A program made the position numbers and the translations under genes. DNA of 5,490 nucleotides from Alphaproteobacteria bacterium. GTDB lineage: Bacteria; Pseudomonadota; Alphaproteobacteria; UBA8366. The notes below the pieces were generated by a model. That model was given only the letters and a program-made list of their open reading frames with translations. It was not told the DNA's origin and did not search any database. Shown in pieces: positions 1 through 5,490 of the stretch. Each line of letters opens with the position of its first letter. Within the stretch, counting starts at the first letter, position 1. Where the stretch lies: assembly GCA_029861675.1 (NCBI GenBank), contig JAOTYV010000304.1, positions 1-5,490 of the forward strand, given 5' to 3'.

Positions 1-1022
1 GACGCCGCGCTGTTCGGGCCGAATGCCGCAAGATCGTACCCTTCAAGGATATTCAAGATCTGCACGAGGTGAATACCGCCCGAGCTTGGCGGCGGCATCG
101 AATAGACATCGTATCCGCGATACCGGCCATGAACCGGCTCACGCATAACCGCGCGGTAATCCGCGAGATCTTGTGCGGTAATAAGCCCCTTGTTGGCCTT
201 CATTTCCGCAACGATCCGTCCGGCGACGTCGCCCTTGTAGAATGCCGTTGCCCCGCCCTTGGCAATGGACCGGAGCGATTCAGCCAGATCGCGCTGCAGC
301 AGCCGGTCCCCGGCATTCAACGGTTTACCGTCCTTGCCGAAGAAAATCCGCTTTGTCTCCGACATTTTCTTGAGCCGTTTCGCCCGGCGTTTGAGTTGAT
401 GGGCCATGTCGCGGCTAACCAAAATTCCTTCGGCGGCGAACCGGATGGCCGGCGCCATCACCTTTTCGAGCGGCATGGTGCCGTAGCGCCGCAGCGCCAT
501 CGTCAGGCCGGCGACGGTACCGGGCACGCCGACCGATCGATGGCTGTATCGAACGCGAGCGCGATCGACCGCGCCATCCGCCTTGAGAAACATCGTTCTG
601 GTGGCCGATTTCGGCGCGGTTTCCCGGTAATCGATGGCGACGGTCTTGCCGTTTCCGGCAAGGTGCAGCAGCATGAATCCGCCACCGCCAATGTTGCCGG
701 CCCGGGGCAGCGTCACCGCCAGCGCAAAACCGACGGCAACCGCCGCATCCACCGCGTTACCGCCCTGCTGCAGAATGTCGATCCCAACGCCGGTTGCCCG
801 CGCTTCCTGCGACGAAACCATGCCACGGGTACCGAAGATCGGATGAATGCGATCCTGCGCGGATCGATAGCCATTTTCGAATTTGGGCGATTGCGCAAGC
901 GCGGAGATCGGGCCCAATGCCGCGAAACATACGGAAACAACTACATATGCGTACGTACGCATGCATGTACGTTTTTTCCGAAAATGATGAATCCGCGAAA
1001 TGTTCGAGCTTGCGTCGCCCAT
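1..1022 (-). CDS. ggt: Gamma-glutamyltransferase (gamma-glutamyl hydrolase), N-terminal 340 codons, cut by left window edge
   Basis: This enzyme transfers or hydrolyses the gamma-glutamyl group of glutathione or gamma-glutamyl-amides, usually in the periplasm. I translated the whole segment and found no frameshift or stop. Family landmarks are HGMVSSQEARAT near residue 67, GGNAVDAAVAV, PRAGNIGGGGFMLLH, and DYRETAP with the substrate-binding arginine at R133 (matching E. coli R114). VGVPGTVAGL and, near the edge, MPPPSSGGIHLVQILNILE follow. The catalytic threonine and small subunit lie outside the window. I chose the ATG at 1022 because AGGAG lies 11 bases upstream, just after the preceding stop codon. 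An in-frame ATG at 962 would give a more compact signal peptide (MRTYAYVVVSVCFAAL...) but has no ribosome site. Either start keeps the hydrophobic core and an ALA|QS cleavage site. The cysteine in the core does not fit a lipobox. It is the fourth gene of the operon, 17 bases after the alcohol dehydrogenase. The family call is very sure; the start is less so. Confidence 0.95.
   Translation of the reverse strand, partial: MGDASSNISRIHHFRKKRTCMRTYAYVVVSVCFAALGPISALAQSPKFENGYRSAQDRIHPIFGTRGMVSSQEARATGVGIDILQQGGNAVDAAVAVGFALAVTLPRAGNIGGGGFMLLHLAGNGKTVAIDYRETAPKSATRTMFLKADGAVDRARVRYSHRSVGVPGTVAGLTMALRRYGTMPLEKVMAPAIRFAAEGILVSRDMAHQLKRRAKRLKKMSETKRIFFGKDGKPLNAGDRLLQRDLAESLRSIAKGGATAFYKGDVAGRIVAEMKANKGLITAQDLADYRAVMREPVHGRYRGYDVYSMPPPSSGGIHLVQILNILEGYDLAAFGPNSAA
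942..972. repeat. 31-base perfectly alternating purine/pyrimidine tract with nested palindromes
   Basis: Every base from 942 to 972 alternates pyrimidine and purine without exception. The tract contains the perfect 12-base palindrome GCGTACGTACGC (949-960), followed by overlapping GCATGC and ATGCAT words. Such tracts can adopt Z-DNA or a small cruciform under negative supercoiling; that is known for the sequence class and inferred here. It covers the shorter candidate start codon of the gamma-glutamyltransferase (960-962) and codes for its first residues (M-R-T-Y-A-Y). The alternation is read directly; any function is unproven. Confidence 0.6.
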
Positions 1023-1033
1023 TGTTGTTTCGG

Positions 1034-1038
1034 CTCCT
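1034..1038 (-). promoter_or_regulatory. Ribosome binding site for the gamma-glutamyltransferase
   Basis: The minus strand reads AGGAG here, one base after the alcohol dehydrogenase stop codon (1040-1042) and 11 bases before the ATG at 1020-1022. The spacing is somewhat long. It supports the upstream start over the ATG at 960-962, which is preceded by an A-rich stretch without a purine-rich GG core. Confidence 0.55.
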
Positions 1039-1039
1039 G

Positions 1040-2221
1040 TCATTCTTGGAGTCGCCCTTCCACCGCATTGACAAATATTTCTTTTAGATCAGAAACACCA
1101 ACGATTCTAGGATTTCCGGCGCGCGTCGGATCAGCATGCGCGAGCTGGGCAATCCGATCGCATTGTTTCGAATCAACCGCGATTTCACTTAATCCATGGG
1201 GTATGCCGACTGTACGTCTCAGCGCCATAATCCACTCGAAGACACTGTCGAACGTGGGATCCGGCAGCCCTAGCGTACGCCCCAATTGGGCAAATTTTTG
1301 CTCGATCTCAGGCCGGTTGAACTGCAATACATACGGCAGAACGATTGCGTTCGTCAGGCCGTGATGGGTCCCATAGAGAGCGCCCACCGCGTGGCTGATG
1401 GAATGCACCGCGCCCAATCCTTTTTGGAACGCGGTCGCGCCCATCGACGCCGCAACCAACATGTGCGTCCGTGCGGCAATATCGGCGCCATCCGCATACG
1501 CCTTCGGCAACCATTCGGCGCACAACCGAAGCCCTTCGAGGGCCACGCCATCGGCCAGCGGATGGAATCCCGGTGCGCAGAACGCCTCGAGACTATGGGT
1601 GAGCGCGTCCATGCCCGTCGCCGCCGTAAGGTTGGGCGGCAGCCCGACACAGAGCTCCGGATCGGCGACGACCGCCTGCGGCATCATCCCCGGATGGAAG
1701 ATGATCCGTTTGATCCCGCTATCGCCTTGGGTGATGACCGCGGCGCGGCCAACTTCCGATCCGGTGCCGGCCGTTGTGGGAATGGCCACGACCGGCGCGA
1801 TCGCCGCCGCATCCGCCCGCCGCCAATTGTCGCCCACATCCTCGAAATCCGCCAAGGCCCGGCTCTGGCCCGATTGAAAGGCGATGGCCTTGCCGGCATC
1901 GAGCGCACTGCCGCCACCGAAGGCGATCACGCCATCATGGCCGCCATCGCGAAAGACCTGGACGCCGGCGGCGACTTCCGTCTCGTTCGGATTCGGCTGA
2001 AGATCGGCGAAAAGACCGGCAACCAGCGCCTCGTCCGCCAACATCGCCTGAAGCCGCGCCACCATCGGGAGCCCGGCGAGACCGGGATCGGTCACGATCA
2101 AGGGCCTGGAAATGCCCTTTTCGCGGCACAACGACGGCACCTCGCGAAGGCGCCCCGGACCGATATGGATTTCCGTCGGAAAGCTCCAATCGGCGGTCAG
2201 TGTTTTCGGATCGATTGGCAT
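1040..2221 (-). CDS. Iron-containing (group III) alcohol dehydrogenase, 393 aa
   Basis: A cytosolic NAD(P)-dependent alcohol dehydrogenase of the FucO/AdhB type, expected to interconvert a primary alcohol and its aldehyde. The N-terminal dinucleotide-binding half shows VTDPGL (D45, equivalent to the NAD-preferring aspartate of FucO), GGGSALDAGKA at 102-112 and PTTAGTGSEV at 148-157. The C-terminal helical half carries the metal ligands D205 and H209 (MDALTHSLEAF), H273 (HSISHAVG) and H287 (GTHHGLTNA), with the 4- and 14-residue spacings usual for the family. A conserved DPTRAGNPR lies near residue 364. Length is normal for the family. I chose the ATG at 2221, 11 bases after the ligase gene's stop codon, over a TTG at 2266 that would add 15 low-complexity residues and overlap the ligase. 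There is little ribosome site, so translational coupling is likely. In this operon it probably oxidises the hydroxyl of a gamma-glutamylated or free amino alcohol; this is inferred. Confidence 0.94.
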   Translation of the reverse strand: MPIDPKTLTADWSFPTEIHIGPGRLREVPSLCREKGISRPLIVTDPGLAGLPMVARLQAMLADEALVAGLFADLQPNPNETEVAAGVQVFRDGGHDGVIAFGGGSALDAGKAIAFQSGQSRALADFEDVGDNWRRADAAAIAPVVAIPTTAGTGSEVGRAAVITQGDSGIKRIIFHPGMMPQAVVADPELCVGLPPNLTAATGMDALTHSLEAFCAPGFHPLADGVALEGLRLCAEWLPKAYADGADIAARTHMLVAASMGATAFQKGLGAVHSISHAVGALYGTHHGLTNAIVLPYVLQFNRPEIEQKFAQLGRTLGLPDPTFDSVFEWIMALRRTVGIPHGLSEIAVDSKQCDRIAQLAHADPTRAGNPRIVGVSDLKEIFVNAVEGRLQE

Positions 2222-2232
2222 CGGCGTCGGGC

Positions 2233-3597
2233 TCAACCGCGTTCGAAGTTGCGCTGGAGTTCCCAATCGGTCACCCGGCCGTCATATTCGCTCTGTTCCC
2301 ATTTTCCGGTATGGAGGTAGTGCTCCACGACCGCGTCGCCGAGCAGTTGGCGCAGAACCGTCGACCCCTCCAACGCGCTGAGCGCTTCGCGCAACGTTCC
2401 CGGAATATCTCGGACCGCCTCCATCTCATAGAGGTTGCCGGAAATTTCCGGTTCCAGTTCCAGCTTGTTCTCGATGCCGTACAAACCGGCGGCGATCAGC
2501 GCCGCATAGGCGAGGTAGGGATTCGCGTCGGCGCCCGGAATGCGGCATTCGACCCGAAAGGCGGGACCGTGTCCCACCAGGCGGAACCCCGCGGTCCGAT
2601 TGTCCCGGCTCCATCCCGTCTTGGTCGGCGCGAATGATCCCGCCTGAAACCGTTTGTAGGAATTGATGTAGGGCGCCAGGAAGTAGGTCATCTCACCGGC
2701 CAGGGCGAGCTGCCCCGCAAGATAATGGCGGAACACATCGGACATGCCGTCGGCCGCGGCGCCATCATGGAAAACCGGCGTGTCAGTATCGGCATTCCAC
2801 AGCGACGAATGGATATGGCAGCTATTGCCGGCAAACTGATTGTCCCATTTCGCCATGAAAGTGATCGACTTGCCCTGGGCATAGGCGATTTCTTTCGCGC
2901 CGTTCTTGTAGATGCTGTGCCGATCCGCCATTACCAGCGCTTCCGCATAGCGCAGGTTGATCTCTTCCTGGCCCGGCCCCCATTCGCCCTTGGAAAATTC
3001 GACCGGGACACCGGCCCCCTCCATGCCGTTGCGAATGGCGCGGATCAGCCCTTCCTCCTTGGTCGTCTGGAAAATGTGGTAGTCCTCGGAATACCAGCCT
3101 GCGGTGGCGAGGCCGCGATAGCCCTTTTCGCGGGCCCCGTCATAGGTCTCGTCGAAGACGTATAATTCCAGCTCGGACCCCATTTTGGCGACGAACCCCA
3201 TCTCGCGGGCGCGCGCCAACTGGCGTTTGAGAATCGACCGGGGCGCATGGCCGAGATCCTCGCCGTGATGGTCGACGCAGTCGGCCATTACCAGCGCCGT
3301 CGCCTCCAGCCAGGGAATTCGCCGCAACGTGGCCAAATCCGGTTTGAGGGCAAAATCGCCATATCCCTTGTCCCAGGACGCCGCCTGATAGCCGGGAACC
3401 GGTTCCATATCCATATCGACAGTCAGCAGATAGTCGCACACATGCATCTCGTCGATGCACTGATCGAGGAAAAACCGGCCGGTCACCCGCTTCCCGATCA
3501 AGCGCCCCTGCATGTCCGGAAAACACACCAAAACGGTGTCGATCTCGCCACTGCCGATGGCCGCCTGCAATGCCGCAATATCAAGAATACCGTCCAT
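2233..3597 (-). CDS. Glutamine synthetase-family gamma-glutamylamine ligase (PuuA/IpuC-like), 454 aa
   Basis: A glutamine synthetase fold ligase expected to join glutamate to an amine with ATP hydrolysis, in the cytosol. The N-terminal beta-grasp domain covers about 1-115, including DTVLVCFPDMQGRLIGKR. The catalytic domain follows with the metal-binding pair GSELEL (E142, E144), GEWGPGQEEIN (E205, E212), CHIHSSLW (H261, H263), KRFQAGSFAPTKTGWSRDNRTAGFR (positions 315-339) and RVECRIPGADANPYLAYAA (E350, R352). True GlnA usually has an N-R-S-A-x-x-R-I-P type loop. Here FRLVGHG follows instead, and the adenylylation tyrosine tail is not recognisable, so ammonia assimilation is unlikely. The ATG at 3597 has AGGT 7 bases upstream, overlapping the stop codon of the aldehyde dehydrogenase gene. 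The neighbours (aldehyde and alcohol dehydrogenases, gamma-glutamyltransferase) support a gamma-glutamylated amine pathway. The amine is unknown: putrescine, ethanolamine, alaninol and others remain possible. Confidence 0.92.
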   Translation of the reverse strand: MDGILDIAALQAAIGSGEIDTVLVCFPDMQGRLIGKRVTGRFFLDQCIDEMHVCDYLLTVDMDMEPVPGYQAASWDKGYGDFALKPDLATLRRIPWLEATALVMADCVDHHGEDLGHAPRSILKRQLARAREMGFVAKMGSELELYVFDETYDGAREKGYRGLATAGWYSEDYHIFQTTKEEGLIRAIRNGMEGAGVPVEFSKGEWGPGQEEINLRYAEALVMADRHSIYKNGAKEIAYAQGKSITFMAKWDNQFAGNSCHIHSSLWNADTDTPVFHDGAAADGMSDVFRHYLAGQLALAGEMTYFLAPYINSYKRFQAGSFAPTKTGWSRDNRTAGFRLVGHGPAFRVECRIPGADANPYLAYAALIAAGLYGIENKLELEPEISGNLYEMEAVRDIPGTLREALSALEGSTVLRQLLGDAVVEHYLHTGKWEQSEYDGRVTDWELQRNFERG

Positions 3598-3604
3598 CGA
3601 TTTT

Positions 3605-3610
3605 ACCTCA
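3605..3610 (-). promoter_or_regulatory. Ribosome binding site of the ligase gene, fused to the aldehyde dehydrogenase stop codon
   Basis: The minus strand reads TGAGGT. TGA (3608-3610) ends the aldehyde dehydrogenase and the overlapping GAGGT acts as the Shine-Dalgarno sequence, 7 bases before the ATG at 3595-3597. A ribosome finishing the first gene sits on the start site of the second, which suggests coupled translation. Confidence 0.6.
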
Positions 3611-4999
3611 TCCTGCCAGCCGCAAATGATATGACTTCGGCCGCGTCAATTGCTCGTAGCCGACCTGGGATAATGTGCATCCACGGCCGGATTGTTTCAC
3701 CCCCGTCCAGGCCAGCGCCGGGTCGAGATAGTCGCAGCGATTCATGAAAACGGTCCCGGTTTCCAACTGTTCGCCGAGATGTAGGGCCGCATCCGCATCC
3801 CGGGTCCAAATGGAAGCGGTGAGGCCAAAATCGCTGTCGTTCATCAACGCCACGGCGTCGCCGTCATCCGCCACCGGCATAATACCGACGACCGGGCCGA
3901 AACTCTCTTCCCGCATCACCGCCATGCGATGATCGACGCCGGTCAGGACTTGCGGGGCAAGATAGGCGGAGTCGCCGTGATCCATCGGAAAACCGGCGGG
4001 ATCGATATGCGTACGCGCACCAGCGGACACGGCATCAGCCACTTGCACGCGTACGTCATCCGCCAAAGACATACGCGCCATTGGGCCAATTGTTGTATTT
4101 TGTGACAAAGGGTTGCCCAATTTGTAATCGCGCACCATCTCGGTGTACGCATCGATAAAATCGTCAAAAAGGCTCTTGTGTACGTATATTCGCTCGATTC
4201 CGCAGCATGACTGACCCGAATTGAAGAAAGCCCCGTCAACCAAATTCTCCACCGTTGCATCGATCGACGCGTCGGCCCGCACATAGGCCGGATCCTTGCC
4301 GCCCAATTCCAATCCGGCGCCGGCAAACCGGCCGGACAGCGCGCGCTGAACCGCCAACCCCCCTTCGACCGACCCGGTAAAGGCGACAAAGCCGACCTCC
4401 GGTTGCCGCATGAGCGCTTCCGCCTGGGCATGACCGAGATAGAGGTATTGAAATACCCCATCCGGCAACGCCGCTTCGGCAAAAGCGGCCGCCATCCGTT
4501 CGGCGGAAAGCGGCGTCTGGTGCGATGGTTTCAGGATCACCGCATTGCCCGCCAGCAATGCCGGCATAATGGCATTCACCGACGTGAGATAAGGATAGTT
4601 CCAGGGCGCCAGGACAAACACCAATCCTAACGGATCACGGCGGATGAAGCGGCGAAACCCCGGCATAGGCGCTGCCTCGATATCCGCGAGGGCCGCCGGC
4701 GCGATCTCGATCATATGACGGGCGCGCTCGGCAAATCCGCGGATTTCGCCCGGCGAATGGGCGATCGGCCGGCCCATTTGCCGGGTCAGCTCCTCGGCGA
4801 TCGCCGGACCGTCCCGTTCGAACGCATCGACCGCGCGGAAGAGGATTTCCTGGCGTTTCTCAACCGGCAGCCGGCGCCAGTCGGATTGTGCTGTCTGTGC
4901 CCGCGCGACGGCGTCTGAAACGGCGGCGTCGGCCGCCATCTCCCGTTCTACGAAGATTTGGCCGTCGATCGGCGAAACGGTCCGGAGAATATCGCTCAA
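3608..4999 (-). CDS. NAD(P)-dependent aldehyde dehydrogenase, 463 aa, UUG start
   Basis: An aldehyde dehydrogenase superfamily enzyme oxidising an aldehyde to a carboxylate in the cytosol. Motifs in order are APWNYPY (N134), [15 protein letters not shown] (K157), FTGS (207-210), LELGGKDP (general-base E231), [11 protein letters not shown] (catalytic C265, followed by C266) and EESFGPV (E366, cofactor). The C-terminal GVKQSGRG completes the fold. The overall layout and length resemble the E. coli Sad/YneI subgroup. The residue after KPS is H160, where many NAD enzymes have glutamate, so cofactor choice is open. The start is TTG at 4997-4999: AAGGAG lies 5 bases upstream and an in-frame TAA lies four codons upstream (5009-5011), so no earlier start is possible. 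The next methionine, M21, would cut into the conserved N-terminus. It is the first gene of the operon. It probably takes the aldehyde made by the co-transcribed alcohol dehydrogenase; this is inferred. Confidence 0.95.
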
Positions 5000-5004
5000 G
5001 CGGG

Positions 5005-5010
5005 CTCCTT
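5005..5010 (-). promoter_or_regulatory. Strong ribosome binding site before a UUG start
   Basis: The minus strand reads a perfect AAGGAG, 5 bases before TTG at 4997-4999. The in-frame TAA at 5009-5011 overlaps its first two bases. Together they fix the aldehyde dehydrogenase start as UUG. Confidence 0.8.
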
Positions 5011-5066
5011 ACGCGGCGCGGGGAACGGGATGAACAGCCGGGGCGCCTCGCGCTTGATAGCACCTT

Positions 5067-5090
5067 GCAACGATTCGCGAAAGATGTTGC
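5067..5090. promoter_or_regulatory. Candidate operator dyad in the divergent promoter region
   Basis: GCAAC (5067-5071) and GTTGC (5086-5090) form a 5-base inverted repeat. It surrounds the 8-base palindrome TTCGCGAA (5074-5081), whose centre is one base off the outer dyad's centre. The position between divergent genes suits a dimeric regulator, but short dyads of this kind occur by chance. No regulator gene is visible in the window. Confidence 0.25.
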
Positions 5091-5138
5091 CTGGGCTGAC
5101 AAATCCTACGCGCTCTGCGACGATGCGGCGCGCAATGC

Positions 5139-5143
5139 AGGGG
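5139..5143 (+). promoter_or_regulatory. Ribosome binding site of glpK
   Basis: AGGGG lies 8 bases before the ATG at 5152-5154. It supports this start even though the frame stays open further upstream. Confidence 0.6.
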
Positions 5144-5151
5144 AAATAGGC

Positions 5152-5490
5152 ATGAGCAGCACCGACGCCATCATCGCCATCGACCAGGGCACGACAAGCA
5201 CGCGGGCAATCCTGTTCGATAGCGACCGAATGCCCCTCGCCACCGCGCAGCGCGAGCTCACGCAGCACTACCCCCACCCCGGCTGGGTCGAACACGATGC
5301 GGAGGAGATTTGGCAGGCAACCGTCGACACCGTGCGCGACGTCATCGCCCGGGCGCCCGGCGGCGTCGCCTCGATCCGGGCGATCGGCATCACCAATCAG
5401 CGCGAAACCACCGTGGTCTGGGATGCCGAGACCGGCAAACCGGTGCTTCGCGCCATCGTCTGGCAGGACCGGCGGACTGCCGAAACCTGC
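5152..5490 (+). CDS. glpK: Glycerol kinase, first 113 codons, cut by right window edge
   Basis: A cytosolic FGGY-family kinase that phosphorylates glycerol with ATP to sn-glycerol 3-phosphate. The visible part is the first portion of FGGY domain I. It shows the phosphate-binding [15 protein letters not shown] (9-23), the glycerol kinase hallmark [16 protein letters not shown] (39-54), [13 protein letters not shown] (79-91) with the glycerol-contacting R84 and E85, and [10 protein letters not shown] (102-111) with W104. These match E. coli GlpK closely and separate it from xylulose or gluconate kinases. The full protein is usually about 500 residues, so roughly a fifth is seen. It is transcribed divergently from the gamma-glutamyl operon and may or may not share a regulator with it. 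Its other glp partners (glpF, glpD, glpR) are not in the window. Confidence 0.95.

Follow-up and report, generated by a model that had tools for sequence, protein, structure and literature searches.

Which amine is processed by an operon that joins a glutamine-synthetase-like ligase to two dehydrogenases and a gamma-glutamyltransferase, and which enzyme releases the product? This question is raised by a 5,490-nucleotide stretch of DNA (hereafter the window) that comprises positions 1 to 5,490 of contig JAOTYV010000304.1, from an Alphaproteobacteria bacterium of the UBA8366 lineage. A preliminary description of the window had reported four same-direction genes with just 10, 11 and 17 bases between them. 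This layout is borne out by the coordinates, and the gene families by Pfam E-values of 1e-45 to 1e-123. We consider it highly probable that the operon encodes an ethanolamine gamma-glutamylation pathway, judging from its sequence, and the window would then be a gene-content variant of a pathway already published for this compound. Its features are as follows.

3608..4999, minus strand: aldehyde dehydrogenase (ALDH), predicted gamma-glutamyl-aminoacetaldehyde dehydrogenase (GAADDH-like); 463 amino acids; Pfam Aldedh, 4.6e-123.
2233..3597, minus strand: glutamine-synthetase-like ligase (GS), predicted gamma-glutamylethanolamide synthetase (ETAGA-like); 454 amino acids; Gln-synt_C, 1e-97.
1040..2221, minus strand: iron alcohol dehydrogenase (Fe-ADH), predicted gamma-glutamylethanolamide dehydrogenase (GETADH-like); 393 amino acids from ATG; Fe-ADH, 1.1e-45; ADH_Fe_C, 6.6e-42.
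3..1022, minus strand: gamma-glutamyltransferase (GGT), N-terminal part, the gene being cut by the window end; ATG at 1022; G_glu_transpept, 1.4e-89.
5152..5490, plus strand: glycerol kinase, N-terminal part, the gene being cut by the window end; FGGY_N, 6.6e-34; best NCBIfam model GlpK, 1e-45 over the 113 residues present.
5000..5151, no strand: intergenic region between the divergent units; a three-way alignment reveals blocks common to two relatives.

The gaps within the operon lie at 3598-3607, 2222-2232 and 1023-1039, and the ALDH gene starts with TTG at 4999, with AAGGAG five bases upstream. The Pfam matches of the four operon genes are far beyond chance; scans of the Fe-ADH and GGT began at upstream starts, 2266 (TTG) and 1043 respectively. 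By eye, the motifs GQSC and ELGGK can be read in the ALDH and the Asp and His metal ligands in the Fe-ADH. Since the window end cuts the GGT gene, the catalytic small subunit is out of view.

Among solved sequences, the ligase is closest to 11zs (601 bits), followed by 5dm3 from Chromohalobacter salexigens (513 bits) and then by the glutamine synthetase 8s59 at 166 bits. The flap reads GSFAP vs GYEAP in two aligned glutamine synthetases, Phe322 replacing Glu; this substitution supports the earlier suggestion of a probable amine-glutamylating relative of glutamine synthetase, and a true ammonia-using glutamine synthetase was rejected on the same residue. Among 102 aligned ligases, Phe occupies the flap position in all 63 encoded near an Fe-ADH (window counted) and all 17 near an EtoX-like binding protein, two overlapping groups, whereas Trp is found in IpuC and in 11 of 12 ligases linked to a glutamine amidotransferase. 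This distribution sets the ligase apart from ammonia enzymes and from IpuC, but not from all other amine ligases. In Streptomyces coelicolor GlnA4, which is described as ethanolamine-specific and forms gamma-glutamylethanolamide, the published model has Phe331 at the flap site (PMC6529630). A FastTree phylogeny of 102 rows (omitting L121, L123 and L128, from the same genomes as L004, L003 and L007, and L116, from that of L001) places the window with 5dm3 and TRAP-linked ligases inside one largely Fe-ADH-linked clade, several deep forks of which are weak, and groups it with the ligases of two related genomes, G001 and G047 (support 0.961). The ligase is thus a member of the glutamine synthetase family that falls in the ethanolamine clade and lacks the flap Glu.

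These comparisons also bear on whether the operon could be a Puu- or Ipu-type amine pathway, the relatives with which the preliminary description had compared it, an alcohol dehydrogenase taking the place of the amine oxidase. The Puu pathway of E. coli likewise masks, oxidizes and releases its substrate, using a flavin oxidase step and the PuuD hydrolase, and in the Ipu pathway an amine is glutamylated before oxidation and release; the masking logic is alike, and a GS-like ligase and an ALDH are present here as well. The window proteins nevertheless score far under the curated NCBIfam cutoffs, at 189 bits for gamma-glutamylputrescine synthetase (PuuA; cutoff 650) and 233 for PuuC (cutoff 850), and neither a PuuB-like oxidase nor a PuuD-like hydrolase occurs among the window's five genes, on which grounds Puu membership was rejected. 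Ipu membership was rejected because IpuC of Paenarthrobacter aurescens TC1 is 39% identical to the window ligase, carries Trp instead of Phe at the flap and has P450, ferredoxin and glutamine-amidotransferase genes as neighbors, while the window's five genes include no glutamine-amidotransferase-like hydrolase. We therefore regard a Puu- or Ipu-type pathway as very improbable; the published ethanolamine pathway of Phaeobacter, Chromohalobacter and Streptomyces (GlnA4) is closer.

In Phaeobacter MED193 on phosphorylethanolamine, the ethanolamine gamma-glutamylase ETAGA, the dehydrogenases GAADDH and GETADH, the gamma-glutamylglycine amidohydrolase GGAH and the ethanolamine-binding protein EtoX, encoded in one operon, increase; the figure legend labels this pathway as predicted, and the genes are described as close relatives of a pathway demonstrated in C. 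salexigens and Agrobacterium (PMC10132767). Like this type (ETAGA-GAADDH-GETADH-GGAH plus EtoVWX), the window encodes ligase, ALDH and Fe-ADH in one direction with short gaps, and its ligase shares a clade with 5dm3. It differs in gene order (ALDH-GS-FeADH vs GS-ALDH-FeADH), in the GGT that follows the Fe-ADH, in the divergent glycerol kinase and in showing no amidohydrolase-like gene, importer or RpiR regulator. The GlnA4 cluster (SCO1610-SCO1615), likened here by its published description, resembles the window in its GS-like ligase with a flap Phe and in a dehydrogenase and an aldehyde dehydrogenase, both predictions; it differs in a predicted amidohydrolase, SCO1615, and the description names no GGT (PMC6529630).

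The GS-ALDH-FeADH order is also annotated on plasmids of S. meliloti, Ruegeria, two Paracoccus, Aminobacter and R. leguminosarum, and the window proteins are 52-57% (ALDH), 50-52% (Fe-ADH) and 51-62% (GS) identical to their counterparts in these six operons. Most of the six add an RpiR regulator, an N-formylglutamate amidohydrolase and a TRAP or permease importer, not every element being present in each. On the Aminobacter aminovorans plasmid, which is typed as conjugative, the beta-hydroxyaspartate cycle genes bhcR and bhcABCD adjoin the ethanolamine trio (L085:13010-18342), an arrangement that joins the ethanolamine pathway to a glyoxylate route. The presence of these glyoxylate-handling genes beside the trio fits glycine as the product.

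In the proposed pathway, whose first three steps we infer from family, clade and operon, the ligase would use ATP to couple L-glutamate to ethanolamine, the Fe-ADH would convert the hydroxyl of gamma-glutamylethanolamide to an aldehyde, and the ALDH would turn that aldehyde into gamma-glutamylglycine. A hydrolase would then split gamma-glutamylglycine into glycine and glutamate. The enzyme for this fourth step is uncertain: the window's GGT could be considered for it only if gamma-glutamylglycine gets into the periplasm, and otherwise a cytoplasmic hydrolase encoded elsewhere may act. The glutamate mask would shield a reactive aminoaldehyde. The earlier scheme, in which the amine is masked, the alcohol oxidized through aldehyde to acid and an amino acid freed, is probably right in outline and has been published for ethanolamine.

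We scanned for related loci with an alignment of 20 ligases and took the best 80 of at least 577 confirmed loci. GS, ALDH and Fe-ADH genes in the same direction, hereafter the trio, occur in 39 of these 80. Neighbors of the 39 trios include an N-formylglutamate-amidohydrolase-like gene (25), an RpiR regulator (25), a permease (15), an EtoX-like TRAP protein (9), a glycerol kinase (2) and a GGT (1, in L001). An importer of the EtoX TRAP or permease kind is nearby in 24 of 39, which makes it common and non-defining; the same applies to the amidohydrolase-like gene. The preliminary description had suggested comparing neighborhoods for co-occurrence of all four genes plus an amine transporter: the two dehydrogenases are kept beside the ligase in the 39 trio loci, an importer in many of these and a GGT in one. 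The window's own five genes include neither an importer nor an N-formylglutamate-amidohydrolase-like releasing gene.

Closer relatives were sought within the order of the closest relative, where a ligase match at E<=1e-150 is present in 27 of 43 genomes. We examined the 15 best of these, with genes called by codon score and labeled by BLAST against few references, so that unlabeled neighbors may hide transporters or hydrolases. An EtoX-like protein at E<=1e-40 is found in four of the 15 (G038, G039, G040 and G043), and no match at that threshold in the other 11, G001 and G047 included. A search for the permease importer gave no match across the 15 relatives and ran without a positive control. 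In G043, the TRAP binding protein next to a ligase 69% identical to the window's has one distinct solved match at E<=1e-20, 4uab/4xf5 (562 bits). The structure 4uab is Csal_0678 with ethanolamine bound (PMC12410723), and ethanolamine is named as the ligand of this binding protein in a second report (PMC4646407). The match ties the sister operon to ethanolamine through its importer.

The importer link also bears on a rival reading, in which the chemistry is unchanged but the substrate is not ethanolamine: the amino alcohol would be alaninol, serinol, 1-amino-2-propanol or 3-aminopropanol, and the amino acid released would differ accordingly. The clade of the window's ligase is separate from that of 5dm3, no TRAP importer is matched in G001 and G047 at the above threshold, and a related ligase (58% identical) lies in a Paraburkholderia cluster resembling rhizobitoxine synthesis. 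Against this, the sister ligases of the four importer-bearing genomes (67-70% identical) adjoin EtoX-like binding proteins, one of which was compared with 4uab, and the flap residue matches GlnA4 and 5dm3, though it is widespread. On balance we find a different amino alcohol quite unlikely and retain ethanolamine as the probable substrate. The Paraburkholderia cluster itself, on a P. phenoliruptrix plasmid (L088:2874-10353), combines the ligase with genes for an aminoethylphosphonate-transaminase-like protein, a pyridoxal-phosphate enzyme, a desaturase and a gamma-glutamyl hydrolase; if it does make rhizobitoxine, the amino alcohol there would be serinol.

The window's GGT part best matches the E. 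coli gamma-glutamyltranspeptidase 2dbu (325 bits), and it shares 63% identity with its positional counterpart in L001. The full-length GGT of G001 is a complete G_glu_transpept domain (1.4e-173), and both it and the G047 protein contain NTTHY or NTTHF, presumably the motif with the nucleophile. A related GGT (61%) occurs in G050, remote from the ligase, and the best matches of the other 12 relatives are at most 42% identical. The preliminary description had cast the GGT as a PuuD-like last step. This assignment has weakened: the GGTs of the window, G001 and G047 have, by eye, a signal-peptide-like N terminus, and the one GGT-bearing trio locus contrasts with 25 of 39 that carry an amidohydrolase-like gene instead. 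Because a periplasmic GGT would miss cytoplasmic gamma-glutamylglycine unless this compound is exported, we give a releasing role less than an even chance.

An alternative that we hold slightly more probable than not is a secreted GGT that scavenges glutathione or other gamma-glutamyl peptides and yields glutamate, glycine being freed by a cytoplasmic hydrolase encoded elsewhere. In addition to the signal-peptide-like N termini, GGTs of the E. coli type break down glutathione in the periplasm (PMC8062742), and the reported Km of GlnA4 for glutamate is 85 mM, hence glutamate supply could matter (PMC6529630). Candidate hydrolases are at hand: 14 of 15 relatives, including G001 and G047, encode a full-length Peptidase_C26 protein (E<=1e-64), and G001 and G047 each encode one N-formylglutamate-amidohydrolase-like protein, which may catalyze the same reaction. 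Moreover, 14 of the 39 trio loci have no amidohydrolase-like gene nearby, and 13 of these also lack a GGT. What speaks against a scavenger is that the position after the Fe-ADH is kept in the window, G001 and G047, that the operons of the latter two contain no amidohydrolase-like gene, and that G001 and G047 have 12 and 10 GGT-like matches (E<=1e-30), so that a general scavenger need not be the operon's.

With the S. meliloti amidohydrolase-like protein as query, 10 of the 15 relatives yielded 14 matches, which we placed in a tree of 27 genes together with five plasmid references and eight hand-picked operon copies. Each importer-bearing genome contributes one gene, and these four make up a single clade, in which the G038 gene is the one located outside the operon. 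The ten other genes, those of G001 and G047 included, are all outside the operon and form a clade (97/95) that is sister to the importer-genome four (84/86), a position that makes the same activity possible in the non-operon genes.

A number of observations weigh against an ethanolamine pathway of the proposed composition. Homology leaves the substrate unfixed, so that alaninol, serinol or propanolamine may be used; the flap Phe is unspecific, being found also in 18 of 19 ligases without any marker neighbor; and identity between the window's ligase and those of the six annotated operons is just 51-62%. The importer, amidohydrolase and RpiR regulator are all absent among the window's five genes. 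Conservation is partial, with the trio in just 39 of 80 loci and in 4 of 11 further members of the class; the other seven of these 11 have no ALDH near the ligase, and two of the seven have no Fe-ADH there either. The ligase seldom has a GGT as neighbor (1 of 39 trio loci; G001 and G047 among the 15 closest relatives); tblastn found none in the 11 further class members, and G040 has a further GGT-like gene, 29% identical, about 5 kb from the ligase. As to release, 13 of 39 trio loci have neither an amidohydrolase-like gene nor a GGT nearby, and the amidohydrolase-like genes split uncleanly by operon, the label taking two changes on the tree. Finally, the glycerol kinase link is limited to one taxonomic order (3 of 80 loci, all from it, in genomes that are not independent), and the lipid-related neighbors described below occur in just 3 of 15 relatives.

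Other genes recur near the ligase in the relatives. An IF-2B (MtnA-like) gene lies downstream in 6 of 15 (L116:4160-5925 in G001, L117, L123, L124 and L127, with that of L118 about 5.5 kb off); it begins four bases past the GGT in G001 and G047, and in five of the six the gene after it encodes a class II aldolase or an aldolase-SDR fusion. IF-2B and aldolase families recall 5-deoxyribose or methylthioribose disposal, which likewise produces an aldehyde. A small protein with a TrmO_N domain (153-174 amino acids as called; Pfam on two copies, BLAST labels for the rest) directly follows the Fe-ADH in 7 of 15 (L122, L123, L124, L125, L128, L129 and L130). In three relatives a TauD-family dioxygenase gene is upstream of the ligase (L125:10490-11335, L129:7487-8353 and L130:10595-11476), directly in two and with one small gene between in the third; the enzyme might supply the amine from a precursor.

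Both promoters probably lie in the intergenic region 5000..5151. Blocks such as GCTGACAAA and GCTCTGC.ACGATG are common to the window, G001 and G047 in this region and are perhaps a shared regulator site. No sigma-70-like site was detected in 5000..5151, and the whole window contains one sigma-70 promoter signal and one terminator signal, against averages of 1.7 and 5.6 in shuffled sequence, so that these signals were set aside. The intergenic region holds no repeats in the window, and in G001 it holds one repeat pair of 34 bases. Nothing in the window, L116, L117, L118 or L123 (84,555 bases) reached the Rfam gathering score, and a riboswitch was rejected.

The divergent glycerol kinase raises the question of where the ethanolamine comes from. 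G001 and G047 repeat the window's order of ALDH-GS-FeADH-GGT with the glycerol kinase divergent, and the window's kinase is 63% identical to the one at the same place in L001. At E<=1e-80, a glycerol kinase occurs in 13 of the 15 relatives, as a single copy in 12 of them. Of the 11 importer-less relatives, 9 have it no more than 10 kb away from the ligase (exceptions: G033, where it is not within this distance, and G035, where none was found); it was not found that near in the four importer-bearing ones, three having it on another contig or distant and one having none found. Many contigs are short, and a kinase on another contig (G033, G039 and G040) may still be near. The chance of so sharp a split between kinase and importer is about 0.011 (hand calculation, 55/5005); the genomes share ancestry, which makes the split a lineage trait and no independent test. 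In G001, G047 and G050, the stretch further includes a sodium/calcium exchanger, a glycerophosphodiester phosphodiesterase (GDPD) and a GlpD-like oxidoreductase (Pfam for some copies, BLAST labels for the rest), which suggests a link to glycerophosphoethanolamine.

With importer-less closest relatives and an adjoining glycerol kinase, ethanolamine may derive from phospholipid head groups, a weaker inference than that of the pathway itself. A more elaborate scenario, which we consider unlikely, is that in this lineage the pathway lost its importer and was joined to the recycling of membrane lipids, that the neighboring GDPD cuts glycerophosphoethanolamine inside the cell, and that the glycerol half enters via GlpD and GlpK while the ethanolamine half is glutamylated, with a secreted GGT replacing the cytoplasmic amidohydrolase and releasing glutamate and glycine once the product has been exported. 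We searched the literature for ethanolamine with GGT or glutamylation, gamma-glutamylglycine with GGT, and glycerophosphoethanolamine with glycerol kinase; among the matches listed, titles and abstract openings describe neither a GGT nor a glycerol kinase beside this operon, most subscription journals being outside the coverage. The window would extend a route for ethanolamine, a phospholipid head group, that has been recognized only recently to a lineage lacking the TRAP importer known from other bacteria, suggesting that the release step and the substrate supply are the variable parts of the pathway. If the link to glycerophosphoethanolamine is true, the two parts of a lipid head group that is very common in bacteria would both be recycled by a single locus.

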